Shown here piece after piece: positions 31,829 to 37,359 of a stretch of DNA of 37,407 nucleotides (the first letter of the stretch is position 1; each line of letters starts with the position of its first letter). Made by a program: the position numbers and the translations under genes. The DNA is taken from positions 1 through 37,407 of the forward strand of contig JAPUIX010000014.1 in the NCBI GenBank assembly GCA_027296625.1, given 5' to 3'. The stretch is from Gammaproteobacteria bacterium (lineage in GTDB: Bacteria > Pseudomonadota > Gammaproteobacteria > JAKEHO01). The notes below the pieces were generated by a model, which was not told where the DNA came from, searched no databases, and saw only the letters and a list, made by a program, of their open reading frames with translations.

Positions 31829-31898
31829 CAGGATCTCCTATGGGAACCTTTTATCCTGTGTGCGAGTCCATAGACCAGAGGCTTGGATTCCAGCCTGG
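31829..31898 (+). other. Paired hairpins between lysS and the hvfA-like gene
   Basis: Two inverted repeats can be read here. CAGGAT (31829-31834) pairs with ATCCTG (31853-31858). CCA-GGCT (31875-31883, with a two-base bulge) pairs with AGCCTGG (31892-31898). Neither is followed by a T-run, so they are not ordinary terminators. They may shape an mRNA leader or be regulator sites; function unknown. A shorter stem directly after the lysS stop (31804-31822) is similar in type. Confidence 0.4.
31843..31868 (+). promoter_or_regulatory. Possible ECF sigma-type promoter for the hvfABC-like operon
   Basis: GGAAC at 31843-31847 matches the -35 element of many extracytoplasmic-function sigma factors. 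About 17 bases downstream is AGTC (31865-31868), a partial match to a GTC-type -10. Operons of this kind are often under ECF sigma control in other proteobacteria. The -10 is weak and the match could be chance. Confidence 0.3.
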
Positions 31899-31951
31899 TT
31901 CATGCTGAGCCAATCACTAGACTTGGTTGTCTAACGTGGCTAATGTAACCG

Positions 31952-31979
31952 CGTCACCTATCAGGTGGCGTATTTTTAT
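31952..31979 (+). terminator. Intrinsic terminator-like hairpin upstream of the hvfA-like gene
   Basis: CGTCACCT (31952-31959) pairs fully, with one G-T pair, with AGGTGGCG (31963-31970) around the loop ATC. A T-rich tail TATTTTTA follows at once. It has the form of a Rho-independent terminator. It lies about 150 bp after lysS but only 34 bp before the hvfA ATG, so it may end lysS transcripts, attenuate hvfA, or both. Confidence 0.6.
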
Positions 31980-32004
31980 AACTGACCCGAGGAGGGAAGG
32001 CCAT

Positions 32005-32340
32005 ATGTCAACTAAAAAGACCTTGAAGCCCATCGTGGCGGCGATCGGTACCACGTTTGCTGTATCGCTCGCGGCATCACCGCTTGTAAGTGCTGAGGAG
32101 GATCCGTTCAGCATGACACAGTTCTCCAGCGGCTATATGGTTGCGGAGCATGGCGGTGAAAAGGGCGCGGAAGGAAAGTGCGGTGAAGCAAAGTGTGGTG
32201 AAGGGAAGAAAGCTGAGGAAGGAAAGTGCGGCGAAGGAAAGTGCGGCGAAGGGAAGAAGGCCGAAGGTGAAAAGAAGGCCGAAGGTACAAAGAAGGCCGA
32301 AGGCCAGTGCGGCGAGGGGAAGTGCGGCGCTAACAAGTAA
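32005..32340 (+). CDS. hvfA: HvfA-like secreted RiPP precursor with EGKCG-type cysteine motifs (probable copper-binding peptide)
   Basis: A 111-residue small exported peptide. Residues 1-30 are a Sec signal peptide (Lys-rich start, hydrophobic core, LVSA end). Then SMTQFSSGYMVAEHG (37-51) matches the conserved linker of the family. The rest is Gly, Lys and Glu-rich and has six Cys (59, 64, 75, 80, 102, 107), each in a five-residue motif: four EGKCG, one EAKCG and one EGQCG. In Haemophilus HvfA, and in the related bufferins, such cysteines are oxidatively remodelled by a DUF692 enzyme with a DUF2063 partner, and the product binds copper. AGGAGG ends nine bases before the ATG at 32005, which decides the start over an earlier in-frame one at 31927. 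The maturase gene begins 14 bp downstream. Confidence 0.88.
   Translation: MSTKKTLKPIVAAIGTTFAVSLAASPLVSAEEDPFSMTQFSSGYMVAEHGGEKGAEGKCGEAKCGEGKKAEEGKCGEGKCGEGKKAEGEKKAEGTKKAEGQCGEGKCGANK
32170..32328 (+). repeat. Imperfect coding repeats of EGKCG motifs in the hvfA-like gene
   Basis: Six 15-base units coding for E-G/A-K/Q-C-G are grouped as three tandem pairs (residues 56-65, 72-81, 99-108). Lys/Glu/Gly spacers of 6 and 17 residues separate the pairs. The units share GGAAAGTGCGGCGAA-like DNA. Such DNA repeats can expand or shrink by slippage or recombination. Confidence 0.9.
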
Positions 32341-32354
32341 GTTCTAGTCTCCCA

Positions 32355-33215
32355 GTGAAGCAGCACGAATTTCCTGTGCAAGGCGCAGGTATTGGTTTGC
32401 GGCGGGCCCTGATGGGCCCTTTTGCTGACCAGACGCCTTCACAGGTTGGTTTCATGGAAGTTGCACCTGAGAACTGGATCGATGTGGGTGGCCGCTTTGG
32501 GCGTACAGTGCGGGCCATCACCGAAAGAACACCCTTTGTATGTCATGGCCTGTCGCTTAACTTGGGCGGCCCTGCACCGCTCGATGAAGCGTTTCTCCAG
32601 CGCGTCAAGCAATTTCTGACTGAGCATAAGATTCGCTGTTACAGTGAACACCTGAGTTACTGTGCAGACGATGGCCACCTTTATGATCTATTGCCCATTC
32701 CCTTTACCGAAGACGCGGTGTATTACGTAGCGGCACGGATCAGACGGACACAGGAGATCCTGGATAGGCGCATTGCGATCGAAAATGTCTCTTACTACGG
32801 CGCCCCGGGACAAGAGATGCAAGAAATCGATTTTATCAATGCGGTCCTTACAGAGGCCGATTGTGATCTGTTGCTGGACATCAACAATATCTATGTCAAT
32901 AGCATCAATCATCGGTACGATCCGGAAACTTTTTTAAAGGCGCTCCCGGGTGAGCGGATCGCCTATGCGCACGTCGCCGGCCACTATGTCGAGGCCGAGG
33001 ACCTCAGGGTTGATACCCACGGAGCGGATGTCATTGACCCGGTATGGCGTCTGCTGGAGACGGCGTACCGGCATTTTGGCGTATTCCCAACGCTCCTGGA
33101 GCGCGATTTCAATATTCCGCCGGCAGAAGTTCTGCTCTCTGAGGTTGACATCATTGTCGGCTTACAGCGGAAATGCAGTGCTTCGGCTCCCCAAAACATT
33201 GTTCAGCATGGATAA
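32355..33215 (+). CDS. hvfB: HvfB-like MNIO (DUF692) RiPP maturase
   Basis: A 286-residue multinuclear non-heme iron-dependent oxidative enzyme of the DUF692 family, a TIM-barrel related to xylose isomerase-like proteins and to MbnB. Candidate metal-binding residues lie in the family's conserved segments: FMEVAPENW (33-41), CHGLSLNLGG (His64), YSEHLSYC (Glu98, His99), IENVSYY (Glu143, Asn144), LLLDINNIYVNS (Asp175), AHVAGHY (His206, His210), DTHG (Asp220, His222) and LERDFN (Glu249). In relatives it uses iron and oxygen to convert Cys of the precursor to a heterocycle. It begins with GTG 14 bp after hvfA and overlaps the hvfC start by 8 bp, so the three genes are coupled. No Shine-Dalgarno is evident before the GTG. 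Confidence 0.93.
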   Translation: MKQHEFPVQGAGIGLRRALMGPFADQTPSQVGFMEVAPENWIDVGGRFGRTVRAITERTPFVCHGLSLNLGGPAPLDEAFLQRVKQFLTEHKIRCYSEHLSYCADDGHLYDLLPIPFTEDAVYYVAARIRRTQEILDRRIAIENVSYYGAPGQEMQEIDFINAVLTEADCDLLLDINNIYVNSINHRYDPETFLKALPGERIAYAHVAGHYVEAEDLRVDTHGADVIDPVWRLLETAYRHFGVFPTLLERDFNIPPAEVLLSEVDIIVGLQRKCSASAPQNIVQHG

Positions 33216-33975
33216 GCGGCCTTCATTCACCGAGATCCAATACGCGTTTACGCGTCATATTCGCGATCCCGAAAATCAGCCTGCACCTGCCGACGTCGAA
33301 GATCGGTGTATGGGCATCTATCGTGAGCTCTTCTATAACAACGTGGAGAGTCTGCTCGCTAACAGCTTTCCCGTACTCCGAAAGGTCATGATTGATGAAG
33401 CGTGGCATGCGTTGATCCGGGATTACTTTGCGCACCATGAAGCGCATACGCCGCTCTTTCCCAAGATGCCGCAGGAGTTCCTGCAATATTTGGAGAAGGA
33501 ACGGGGGATGCATCCCACCGACCCGCCATTTTTGTGGGAGCTGGCGCACTATGAGTGGGTGGAAACCGCGCTTTCGCTTGATACGCGCGAGATTGACCTG
33601 GCTGGTATCGACCCGGAGGGGGATTTACTGGCCGGCGTCCCGGTGCTGAGCCCGCTGGCCTGGCCGCTCGCCTACCGTTTTCCGGTGCAGCGAATCAGCC
33701 CAAATGACAAGCCCCATCAGGCGCCCGAAGAGCCGACGTATTTGGTCGTGTACCGTGACCGGCGCGATGAGGTGGGTTTTATCGAGCTCAATCCGGTGGC
33801 TGCCCGGCTGCTTGAGCGAATTGCCGAAGAGCGGGATAAGTCTGGACGGGAATTGCTTGACGATATTGCAAAAGAATTACAACATCGAAACCCGGAGGCG
33901 GTTATCGATGGCGGGTTGGAGATCATGGCGCAGTTACGTGCCAAGGATGTCCTCCTCGGTATACGCATGACCTGA
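33208..33975 (+). CDS. hvfC: HvfC-like DUF2063 RiPP maturation partner
   Basis: A 255-residue protein. Its N-terminal part (about 5-95) is the DUF2063 domain, with CMGIYRELFYNN, LLANSFPVLRKV and YFAHHEAHTPLFPKMP. This all-helical domain was once called a putative DNA-binding domain, but in MNIO operons it acts with the DUF692 enzyme and probably recognises the precursor. The C-terminal part (about 140-255) is less conserved, mixed strand and helix, and could be the recognition element. The frame is open far upstream inside hvfB, but ATG at 33208 (MDKRPSF) fits the family start. It overlaps hvfB by 8 bp and is the last gene of the operon; a DoxX-type hvfD, common in related loci, is absent. 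Confidence 0.9.
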   Translation: MDKRPSFTEIQYAFTRHIRDPENQPAPADVEDRCMGIYRELFYNNVESLLANSFPVLRKVMIDEAWHALIRDYFAHHEAHTPLFPKMPQEFLQYLEKERGMHPTDPPFLWELAHYEWVETALSLDTREIDLAGIDPEGDLLAGVPVLSPLAWPLAYRFPVQRISPNDKPHQAPEEPTYLVVYRDRRDEVGFIELNPVAARLLERIAEERDKSGRELLDDIAKELQHRNPEAVIDGGLEIMAQLRAKDVLLGIRMT

Positions 33976-34250: not shown

Positions 34251-35885
34251 ATGAAAGCCGCAGAATTACTCGTACGGTGCCTTGAGAACGAGCAGGTTGA
34301 CAGGATCTACGGGATCCCAGGCGAGGAGAATATCGACGTCATGGATGCGCTGCTGGACAGCACCATCCAGTTTGTGACGACGCGCCATGAGCAGGGCGCG
34401 GCCTTTATGGCGGATGTCTCCGGACGTCTCACCGGAAAGGCGGGGGTGTGTCTTGCCACATTAGGACCTGGTGCCACAAACCTGATCACGGGGGTCGCCG
34501 ATGCCAACATGGATAACGCGCCCGTCGTCGCCATTGCTGGGCAGGCGGCCACCACGCGACTGCACAAGGAAAGCCATCAGGTGCTGGATCTCGTCAACCT
34601 CTTTAAACCGATCTCGAAATACAGCACCCAGATCCGCGTACCCGAGGTCATCCCGGAAATCGTTCGCAAGGCATTCAAGGTTGCAGAAGCAGAGAAACCC
34701 GGCTGTAGTTTTTTTGGCCTGCCGGAGAACGTTGCGGGCGCCACGGTGGAGGGGAAGACACCGCTAAAGGTCCAAAGCCCGCTAACGCCTGCCCCGCCAG
34801 AAGAGAAGGTCGCTGAGGCGGTAAAGCTTATTTCTGATGCAAATTTCCCGCTCGTCATGGCCGGCAACGGGGTCATCAGAGCGGGCGCCTCGCACGAGTT
34901 AGTGCGCTTTGCCGAGACGCTCAATATTCCCGTGGCCAATACCTTCATGGCCAAGGGCGTCATTCCTTTTTCACACGAGCTCTCCCTGGGGGCTGTCGGT
35001 TTGCAAGCAGACGACTATGTGCAGTGTGGCTTTGACCGCGCCGATCTCATTATCTGCGTTGGCTACGATATCGTGGAATATCACCCCTATCTTTGGCACA
35101 AAGATAAATCCCGTCCCATCATCCATATTGATGCATCGCCTGCGGAGGTCGATGAACATTACATTCTGGCAAGCGGCGTTATCGGGGATATTGGTCAATC
35201 GCTCCGCAGAATCGCTGATGCGGCTGATCCCCACGAAAAATTTCTCGCGGCAAGTCTGCGCCGGACCATCGTGGATGAGATGGCCACTCATGCGGAAGAT
35301 GAGGGCTACCCCGTCAAACCGCAGAAGATCATGTGGGACTTAAGAAAGGCCCTGGAGCCGGAGGATATTGTTATTTCCGATGTGGGCGCCCACAAGATGT
35401 GGATGGCCCGTATGTATCAGGCGGAACAACCCAACACATGCATTATCTCGAATGGTTTTGCTTCCATGGGCATTGCGCTGCCCGGCGCCATCGCCGCGAA
35501 GCTGACCTATCCGGATCGTACAGCACTGGCAGTCACGGGTGATGCCGGCTTCATGATGAATTCCCAGGAAATCGAGACGGCGCTCCGCCTTGGGGTGGCC
35601 ATTGTCGTCTTGATCTGGACGGACTCCGAATATGGGCTCATTAAGTGGCATCAGCTCAAGGCATTCGGCCGGTCTTCACATATCAGCTTTACCAACCCGG
35701 ATTTTGTCAAGTATGCGGAGAGTTTTGGAGCCAAGGGTTACCGGGTGGAATCAACAAAGGAATTGCTGCCAACATTGAAACAGGCAATTAAAGATAACAC
35801 CGTGGTAATCATCGACTGCCCGGTTGACTACAGTGAAAATATGAAGTTAACGGAAAAGCTCGGCGAGCTGGTCTGCCCGATATAA
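34251..35885 (+). CDS. Catabolic-type acetolactate synthase (AlsS-like)
   Basis: A 544-residue ThDP-dependent enzyme joining two pyruvates to acetolactate with loss of carbon dioxide. The catalytic Glu is Glu47 (TTRHEQGAAFMAD). The ThDP/metal motif runs from GDAGF (430-434) to WTDSEYG (456-462), with Asp458 at the metal-ligand position as in Bacillus AlsS. GYDIVEYHPYLW (271-282) resembles the AlsS segment GYDPIEYDPKFW and replaces the FAD-binding region of biosynthetic AHAS. No regulatory small subunit (ilvN/ilvH) is nearby, fitting the catabolic group. No budA-type decarboxylase is nearby either; instead an aldehyde dehydrogenase follows after 25 bp, so the product's fate is unclear. Another ThDP-enzyme reaction cannot be excluded. 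Confidence 0.82.
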   Translation: MKAAELLVRCLENEQVDRIYGIPGEENIDVMDALLDSTIQFVTTRHEQGAAFMADVSGRLTGKAGVCLATLGPGATNLITGVADANMDNAPVVAIAGQAATTRLHKESHQVLDLVNLFKPISKYSTQIRVPEVIPEIVRKAFKVAEAEKPGCSFFGLPENVAGATVEGKTPLKVQSPLTPAPPEEKVAEAVKLISDANFPLVMAGNGVIRAGASHELVRFAETLNIPVANTFMAKGVIPFSHELSLGAVGLQADDYVQCGFDRADLIICVGYDIVEYHPYLWHKDKSRPIIHIDASPAEVDEHYILASGVIGDIGQSLRRIADAADPHEKFLAASLRRTIVDEMATHAEDEGYPVKPQKIMWDLRKALEPEDIVISDVGAHKMWMARMYQAEQPNTCIISNGFASMGIALPGAIAAKLTYPDRTALAVTGDAGFMMNSQEIETALRLGVAIVVLIWTDSEYGLIKWHQLKAFGRSSHISFTNPDFVKYAESFGAKGYRVESTKELLPTLKQAIKDNTVVIIDCPVDYSENMKLTEKLGELVCPI

Positions 35886-35910
35886 GAAAGCGAAGAGCGG
35901 GAAAAAGAAT

Positions 35911-37359
35911 ATGAATTCTAAGCTTCCCCATTATCCCGTGATGAGTCCTAGTGCAAACACTACCGACGGGGTGCTTGAGGTCACCGCGCCTTTTGATGGT
36001 TCCTTGATCGCGACGGTGGACACGGCGGATTGGAAAGCCGTCGATAAGGCCTTGCAGACGGCCCATGATCTATTTCTGGATCGGGACCATTGGCTGACGC
36101 CCACCCAAAGAATCGACATCCTGAAGAAGACGGCCGCCATGATGAGCGAGCGCGCCGAGGAATTGGCAGTGGAAGCCGCCCGGGAAGGGGGCAAGCCGCT
36201 GATTGATTCAAGAGTGGAAGTGGCCCGCGCCATCGATGGCGTCAATCTGTGTATTCGATTCTTGCAGAGTGGTGCGGGTGAGGAGATACCGATGGACATC
36301 AATGCGGCGTCGGCCCAGCGTATGGTGTTCACGCGAAAGGAACCCATCGGCGTGGTGGTGGCCGTCAGTGCCTTTAACCATCCACTGAATCTCATCGTAC
36401 ACCAGGTGGGGCCGGCGGTGGCGACCGGCTGTCCGGTCATCATCAAACCGGCCGAGGATACACCGCTGTCCTGTTTTCGCTTTGTGGAGATGTTGCGCGC
36501 AGCAGGCTTACCCCAAGCATGGTGCCAGTCGTTCATCGTCGAGGACCTGGACGTCGCGACGCGGCTTGTGGCTGACGCCCGGGTCGGCTTTTTCAGTTTC
36601 ATCGGAAGTGCCCGGGTAGGCTGGATGCTGCGATCCAAGCTCGCACCTGGCACGCGATGCGCGTTGGAACACGGTGGGGCGGCACCGGTGATATTCGCAG
36701 CCGATGCCGATCGCGACGAGGCACTACCGTTGCTGGCCAAAGGGGGCTTCTATCACGCAGGCCAGGTGTGCGTTTCGGTCCAACGCGTCTTCGCGCACAG
36801 CTCGATTGCCATGGAGGTGGCCGAAGAGCTTGCAAAGATTGCGAAGGCACTCAAGGTGGGCGATCCGACACGTGCGGACACAGAGGTCGGGCCATTGATC
36901 CGGGAACGCGAAGTCGATCGTGTGCATGAATGGGTCAGGGAGGCCAAGGCCGCCGGCGGGAATGTGCTGTCGGGCGGCGCGAAGTTGTCCGGTTCTTGCT
37001 ACGCGCCGACCGTTTTATTTGAGCCCCCGGATGATGCAAAGGTCAGCACGCTTGAGATCTTTGGCCCCGTCGTTTGTGTCTATCCCTATTCCGAGCTCGA
37101 TGAAGCCATCTCGAGGGCCAACGCCCTGCCGACTGCTTTCCAAGCGGCCGTGTTTACACGTGATTTGGACACGGCGCTCAGGGCTTACTCGCGGCTTGCC
37201 GGTAGTGCGATTATGGTCAACGACCACACGGCCTTTCGGGTAGACTGGATGCCATTCGCCGGGATCAAGCAGTCGGGGCTCGGCGTCGGCGGCATTCCGT
37301 ATACCATGCACGATATGCAGATTGAAAAGCTGTTGGTCCTGCGGTCTAAGGTGCTATAG
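35911..37359 (+). CDS. NAD(P)-dependent aldehyde dehydrogenase family protein
   Basis: A 482-residue cytoplasmic aldehyde dehydrogenase of normal family length. The oxyanion-hole Asn is Asn156 (SAFNHPLN), the general base Glu253 (LEHGGAAPV) and the catalytic nucleophile Cys287 (GQVCVSVQRV). EIFGPVV and PFAGIKQSGLG near the C-terminus are also conserved. The CxSxQR arrangement after the Cys is typical of the lactaldehyde, phosphonoacetaldehyde and sulfoacetaldehyde dehydrogenase branch rather than of betaine or retinal dehydrogenases. The real substrate is not evident. It lies 25 bp after the acetolactate synthase gene, so the two are probably cotranscribed and may share a pathway. The 48 bp left after its stop contain nothing recognisable. 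Confidence 0.88.
   Translation: MNSKLPHYPVMSPSANTTDGVLEVTAPFDGSLIATVDTADWKAVDKALQTAHDLFLDRDHWLTPTQRIDILKKTAAMMSERAEELAVEAAREGGKPLIDSRVEVARAIDGVNLCIRFLQSGAGEEIPMDINAASAQRMVFTRKEPIGVVVAVSAFNHPLNLIVHQVGPAVATGCPVIIKPAEDTPLSCFRFVEMLRAAGLPQAWCQSFIVEDLDVATRLVADARVGFFSFIGSARVGWMLRSKLAPGTRCALEHGGAAPVIFAADADRDEALPLLAKGGFYHAGQVCVSVQRVFAHSSIAMEVAEELAKIAKALKVGDPTRADTEVGPLIREREVDRVHEWVREAKAAGGNVLSGGAKLSGSCYAPTVLFEPPDDAKVSTLEIFGPVVCVYPYSELDEAISRANALPTAFQAAVFTRDLDTALRAYSRLAGSAIMVNDHTAFRVDWMPFAGIKQSGLGVGGIPYTMHDMQIEKLLVLRSKVL

Follow-up and report, generated by a model that had tools for sequence, protein, structure and literature searches.

The captophorins are a young class of peptides, with structures settled in 2025-2026, yet a very widespread one, and their physiological role is still open according to the authors of PMC13097082. 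The chemistry of the relatives of the operon considered here has now been assigned as 5-thiooxazole formation with copper binding (PMC13097082; PMC13419390), and all three characterised EGKCG systems with a partner protein of the same kind carry 5-thiooxazole (PMC13097082). In FonB, residues R15, R16, and F250 mark the group acting on Lys-Cys (Gadgil et al., PMC13097082), while in Cys-Lys enzymes Asp replaces the Phe and in other groups the second Arg is absent (PMC13097082). As for regulation, hypochlorite induces the hvf/doxX operon of Haemophilus influenzae, and this operon requires the ECF sigma factor RpoE2 (PMC7907618).

The window (the whole stretch of DNA analysed, 37,407 nucleotides) very probably harbors an intact HvfABC-type captophorin operon of the EGKCG branch, an ordinary member of this known class, with the following features:

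31843 to 31871, + strand: predicted sigma-E-type promoter, GGAACCTT-N15-GTCCAT (-35 box 31843-31850, -10 box 31866-31871)
31990 to 31995, + strand: Shine-Dalgarno sequence AGGAGG of hvfA, ahead of the first ATG, by direct reading of the sequence
32005 to 32340, + strand: hvfA, precursor gene, 111 aa, six Cys in EGKCG-type 5-mers (NF050137)
32005 to 32094, + strand: predicted Sec signal peptide (residues 1-30), read by eye, A30 conserved
32101 to 32145, + strand: conserved leader box DPFSMTQFSSGYMVA (residues 33-47), from an alignment of 82 precursors
32170 to 32331, + strand: core repeats with Cys 59, 64, 75, 80, 102, and 107, from the sequence and NF050137
32355 to 33215, + strand: hvfB, MNIO (DUF692) maturase gene, GTG start, 286 aa (NF003818, fold match 3BWW, ligands intact)
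33208 to 33975, + strand: hvfC, gene for a DUF2063 plus RRE-type partner protein, 255 aa (NF050145, PF09836, PF22106, 3DEE)

A sequence-only reading had proposed this three-gene layout, and its coordinates, start and stop codons, 14-bp gap and 8-bp overlap all proved exact; its family assignment of the three genes was likewise borne out by curated HMMs, by the nearest solved structures and by the fold match of a structural model. The E-values of the curated HMMs (4e-11 for hvfA, 9e-132 for hvfB, and 1e-93 for hvfC), together with a lysS-hvfABC gene order shared by 17 loci in other gammaproteobacterial genomes, indicate that these are not chance open reading frames. The expectation that the precursor would be labelled a low-complexity hypothetical protein is outdated, as NCBIfam model NF050137 names it above its cut-off. 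The presence of lysS upstream in the 17 relative loci, as in the window, points to a long vertical descent within this mostly uncultured group of Gammaproteobacteria; spread by plasmids was considered and set aside, with a single weak DUF692 match and no signs of mobility. On the same strand, 275 bp 3' of hvfC, the window carries genes for a TPP-dependent enzyme (acetolactate-synthase-like) and an aldehyde dehydrogenase (34251-37359), which probably form a unit separate from hvfABC.

Among described systems, fontiphorin (fonABC, Fontimonas thermophila) shares with the window operon the minimal ABC organisation in a gammaproteobacterium, the EGKCG repeats, the lack of DoxX and the Arg-Arg and Asp-Phe residues of the active site, whereas FonA has seven modified sites against six Cys here, one of which lies in EGQCG. 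Oxazolin (hvfABCX, H. influenzae) has in common the signal peptide, predicted here from the sequence, six Cys in EGKCG repeats, HvfB, HvfC and control by an ECF sigma factor, here deduced from the promoter; it differs in possessing HvfX (DoxX), of which no gene occurs in the window operon, in its RpoE2 promoter, the one here being of the canonical RpoE type, and in its precursor, since the window protein falls under the HvfA equivalog cut-off. The EGKCG motifs match the fontiphorin and oxazolin precursors, both of which bear 5-thiooxazoles and bind Cu. The bufferins (Buf1/DUF2282 and Buf2), related to copper stress, also combine an MNIO enzyme, a DUF2063 partner and a Sec-exported Cys-rich precursor, as is predicted here, but with other precursor families and specificity residues, and both types occur elsewhere in this genome. 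Of the two relatives named in the earlier comparison, HvfABC and the bufferins, the precursor belongs with the HvfA/EGKCG branch; it is not of bufferin type and has no DUF2282/BufA2 signature. Methanobactin MbnABC shares the MNIO fold and the iron ligands, and departs from the window operon in its partner MbnC, its oxazolone/thioamide product and its role in copper uptake.

The maturase scored 438.6 bits against the NCBIfam HvfB model NF003818 (cut-off 360) and the partner 313.4 bits against the HvfC model NF050145 (cut-off 142); Pfam matches were MbnB_TglH_ChrH, DUF2063 (PF09836), and NGO1945_C (PF22106), giving HvfC the DUF2063 plus RRE-type partner architecture (PME type 1). The nearest solved structures by sequence were 3BWW for HvfB and 3DEE for HvfC, and an AlphaFold model of HvfB (pLDDT 87.6, from a 21-sequence alignment) had as best fold match the HvfB-like 3BWW (E 5e-25, TM 0.79/0.89), followed by TglH and MbnB. 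None of the metal-ligand residues of the DUF692 protein, to which the sequence-only reading had drawn attention, was lost: all nine iron ligands (H64, H99, E143, D175, N178, H206, D220, H222, and E249) and the base D251 are invariant among the 21 aligned sequences, which take in both bufferin maturases of the same genome. These nine residues correspond by alignment to the ligands listed for VcMbnB (PMC8888699) and to the site 3 ligands N175, D242, and H244 of HvfB (PMC13419390), with a further list in PMC13097082, while D251 aligns with the catalytic base D249 of FonB. The protein reached neither the BufB maturase model (261.3 bits, cut-off 310) nor the MbnB model (35.7 bits, cut-off 325), and its partner is a DUF2063 protein, not MbnC.

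With regard to specificity, R16/R17 and F252 of the window HvfB, within the motifs GLRR and ERDFN, match R15/R16 and F250 of FonB. The same 2.4-Mb genome encodes two further clusters: a Buf2 cluster on contig C116 (L004), with a precursor containing NACKGKGAC and an enzyme with GLRP and ERDDN, and a DUF2282 (Buf1) cluster on contig C99 (L005), with a DoxX-type gene and an enzyme with GLRA and EWDTE. The specificity residues of the three clusters differ as published, so that the published rule fits three paralogs within one genome, which offers a ready test of the fidelity between enzyme and precursor. These residues also bear on a different product. MNIO enzymes catalyse several reactions, the products of HvfA were initially assigned as oxazolone/thioamide, one core site is EGQCG rather than Lys-Cys and no copper gene lies near hvfABC; the operon could thus be real and its maturase make another change of Cys, for example a methanobactin-like oxazolone/thioamide, on a peptide involved in the uptake or buffering of a non-copper metal. 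We regard this as very unlikely, considering the 5-thiooxazole found in all three characterised EGKCG systems with such a partner (PMC13097082), the match of the HvfB specificity residues to FonB and the MbnB score, far below its cut-off. No metal-resistance gene adjoins the operon.

The precursor begins with a predicted Sec-type signal, MSTKKTLKPIVAAIGTTFAVSLAASPLVSA as read by eye, whose A30 is conserved at 95% in the precursor alignment. All six Cys lie in EGKCG-type 5-mers (four EGKCG, one EAKCG, and one EGQCG, the last at Cys102), interspersed with Cys-less EGKKA-type units that resemble copies of the same repeat. The protein scored 42.4 bits for the HvfA-type KCGExKCG domain (NF050137, cut-off 19.5) and 37.6 bits for the strict HvfA equivalog NF050188, below its threshold of 95; by these models it is a member of the family rather than an ortholog of the Haemophilus-type HvfA. 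In the alignment of 82 precursors, which were collected without using the leader box as a criterion, residues 33-35 (usually NPF, DPF here), 43-44 (GY), and 47 (A) are conserved at 90-99%, and most of the 80 loci of close HvfB relatives have, upstream, a precursor that shares this leader box and contains repeats of Cys-Gly units. Lying directly after the predicted Sec cut, the box, DPFSMTQFSSGYMVA, could plausibly dock the RRE-type domain, and we consider that it probably does so.

In the mechanism we propose, HvfC would bind the precursor, its RRE-type domain probably contacting the DPF...SSGYMVA box, and HvfB, as a multi-iron oxidative enzyme, would convert the Xaa-Cys pair in each of the six 5-mers into a 5-thiooxazole in the cytoplasm, removing 4 H per site. 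For Sec cleavage after A30, the predicted shift is -24.19 Da on a peptide with a monoisotopic mass of 8274.72 Da. The product would then be exported by Sec and bind Cu(I), perhaps other soft metals as well, in the periplasm, and transcription would most likely start from the sigma-E-type promoter, placing the operon within the envelope-stress response. Modification to 5-thiooxazole, copper binding and export are here transferred by analogy from the characterised relatives, and the sigma factor is inferred from the promoter.

That promoter, GGAACCTT-N15-GTCCAT, occurs in this exact form nowhere else in the genome. As compared with the published RpoE consensus (-35 GGAACTT, -10 TCAAA; PMC12153292), its -10 box (TCCAT) agrees only in part. 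A related pattern, GAAAC-TTT-N14-GTC, recurs upstream of hvfA in the relatives, with exact occurrences in 18 of 98 regions vs. 0.03 expected from shuffles. When regions were scored against the RpoE consensus, taking 10 or more of 12 as positive and other segments of the same loci as controls, the promoter class was found in 39 of 93 hvfA upstream regions and in 73 of 3720 control segments (2%); slightly narrower bounds in another run gave 35/93, and since the loci share ancestry and are not independent, the p-values of this enrichment are too small. Regions unseen before the motif was defined gave 24/69 (controls 52/2760) and loci from a separate search 7/16 (controls 15/640), the matches ranging over methanotrophs and several other lineages of diverse Gammaproteobacteria. 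Methylobacter marinus A45 (L082) is a culturable relative that has this promoter class. The genome encodes its own RpoE (TIGR02939, 302 bits, cut-off 236), with RseA adjoining downstream, and this rpoE-rseA pair is preceded by CGAACTT-N15-GTCTAT, of the same motif class and spacing, as autoregulation of sigma-E would predict. In the sister genome, hvfA is preceded by GGGAACCTT-N15-GTCAATAGA, where the boxes are kept and the spacer has diverged at the same length.

The promoter enrichment, its conservation in the sister genome, the boxes of the genome's own rpoE and the RpoE2 precedent point to envelope or oxidative stress as the likely inducer of hvfABC; copper excess may contribute to such stress and a response of the operon to metal is possible. 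Captophorin genes of other bacteria do respond to copper and gold (PMC5413113; PMC13097082) and the genome encodes several further ECF-type factors, besides a cut-off ECF gene start near the DUF2282 cluster, so the promoter might be used by another ECF or metal-responsive sigma factor and the operon answer metal rather than envelope stress, which we consider rather unlikely given the agreement of the hvfA promoter boxes with the published RpoE consensus and the presence of the same boxes and spacing before the genome's own rpoE. The apparent ECF gene start lies at the end of contig C99 (L005:4329-4547), cut by the contig end. A scan for sigma-70 promoters returned nothing above chance. Directly before hvfA, at 31951-31971 of the window, a terminator-like dyad, GCGTCACCTATCAGGTGGCGT, is followed by a T-rich stretch; it was discarded as a regulatory element, being absent from the sister genome, and an overlapping operator of the MerR family (metal type) was considered and set aside, as a -35 box is lacking.

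Induction by sigma-E remains the reading we prefer for this operon. Its extension to the whole branch, namely that the EGKCG captophorin operons of many Gammaproteobacteria belong to the classical RpoE (sigma-E) regulon and that their peptides provide a general periplasmic defence not specific to copper, is put forward tentatively, as an open prospect that we do not yet favour. If true, thiooxazole peptides would guard the periplasm against metal as well as oxidative or envelope damage. Three things are new here: the conserved sigma-E-type promoter, which offers the EGKCG branch a concrete signal that can be tested, the three clusters whose specificity residues agree with the published rule, and a sister species from which the maturase has been lost.

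The sister genome is the sole other genome of the genus compared. Its syntenic locus (L160 / L111, G001:C90), running from lysS and hvfA to the aldehyde dehydrogenase gene, has kept hvfA and its promoter. Missing from it are 458 bp across hvfB, roughly 350 bp of hvfC, and some 1.7 kb that extends into the TPP-enzyme gene downstream. The stretch contains no Ns, and an assembly error is possible. Having lost most of hvfB and hvfC, the sister genome suggests that the system is dispensable there, and the retention of hvfA alone could be taken to mean that the operon is decaying and the precursor, in unmodified form, is secreted as a metal-binding peptide of low complexity. We give this hardly any credence for the window, where the three open reading frames and the catalytic residues are intact, and where dozens of related loci preserve the three genes together.

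The sister genome has in addition another, intact HvfB-HvfC pair (HvfB 424 bits, HvfC 279), whose precursor (L087:1043-1420, G001:C76) joins an HvfA-type leader to a core of RCGTFCGG / KCANMCA / KCGTFCAG / KCGNICA, and whose HvfB has Leu in place of the specificity-site Phe. The same KCGxxCGG/KCAxxCA core type occurs in a second genome (L118, G091:C58), and no NCBIfam family covers a precursor with such a core. Several copies were found by a degenerate KCGxxCGG search in these two genomes only (G001 and G091), among 369 genomes of the class; single matches in the remaining genomes look like chance and were set aside. The HvfA-type leader and maturase family may have adopted a different core, made of KCGxxCGG units, in the sister species.

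Nine further loci (L019, L025, L029, L030, L031, L034, L043, L044, and L066) hold HvfB-HvfC pairs with no Cys-repeat precursor directly upstream. The substrate of these pairs must be of a different kind or located elsewhere. Most of the nine are near an endonuclease III gene, several are beside another small conserved gene and three have a DoxX-type gene downstream.
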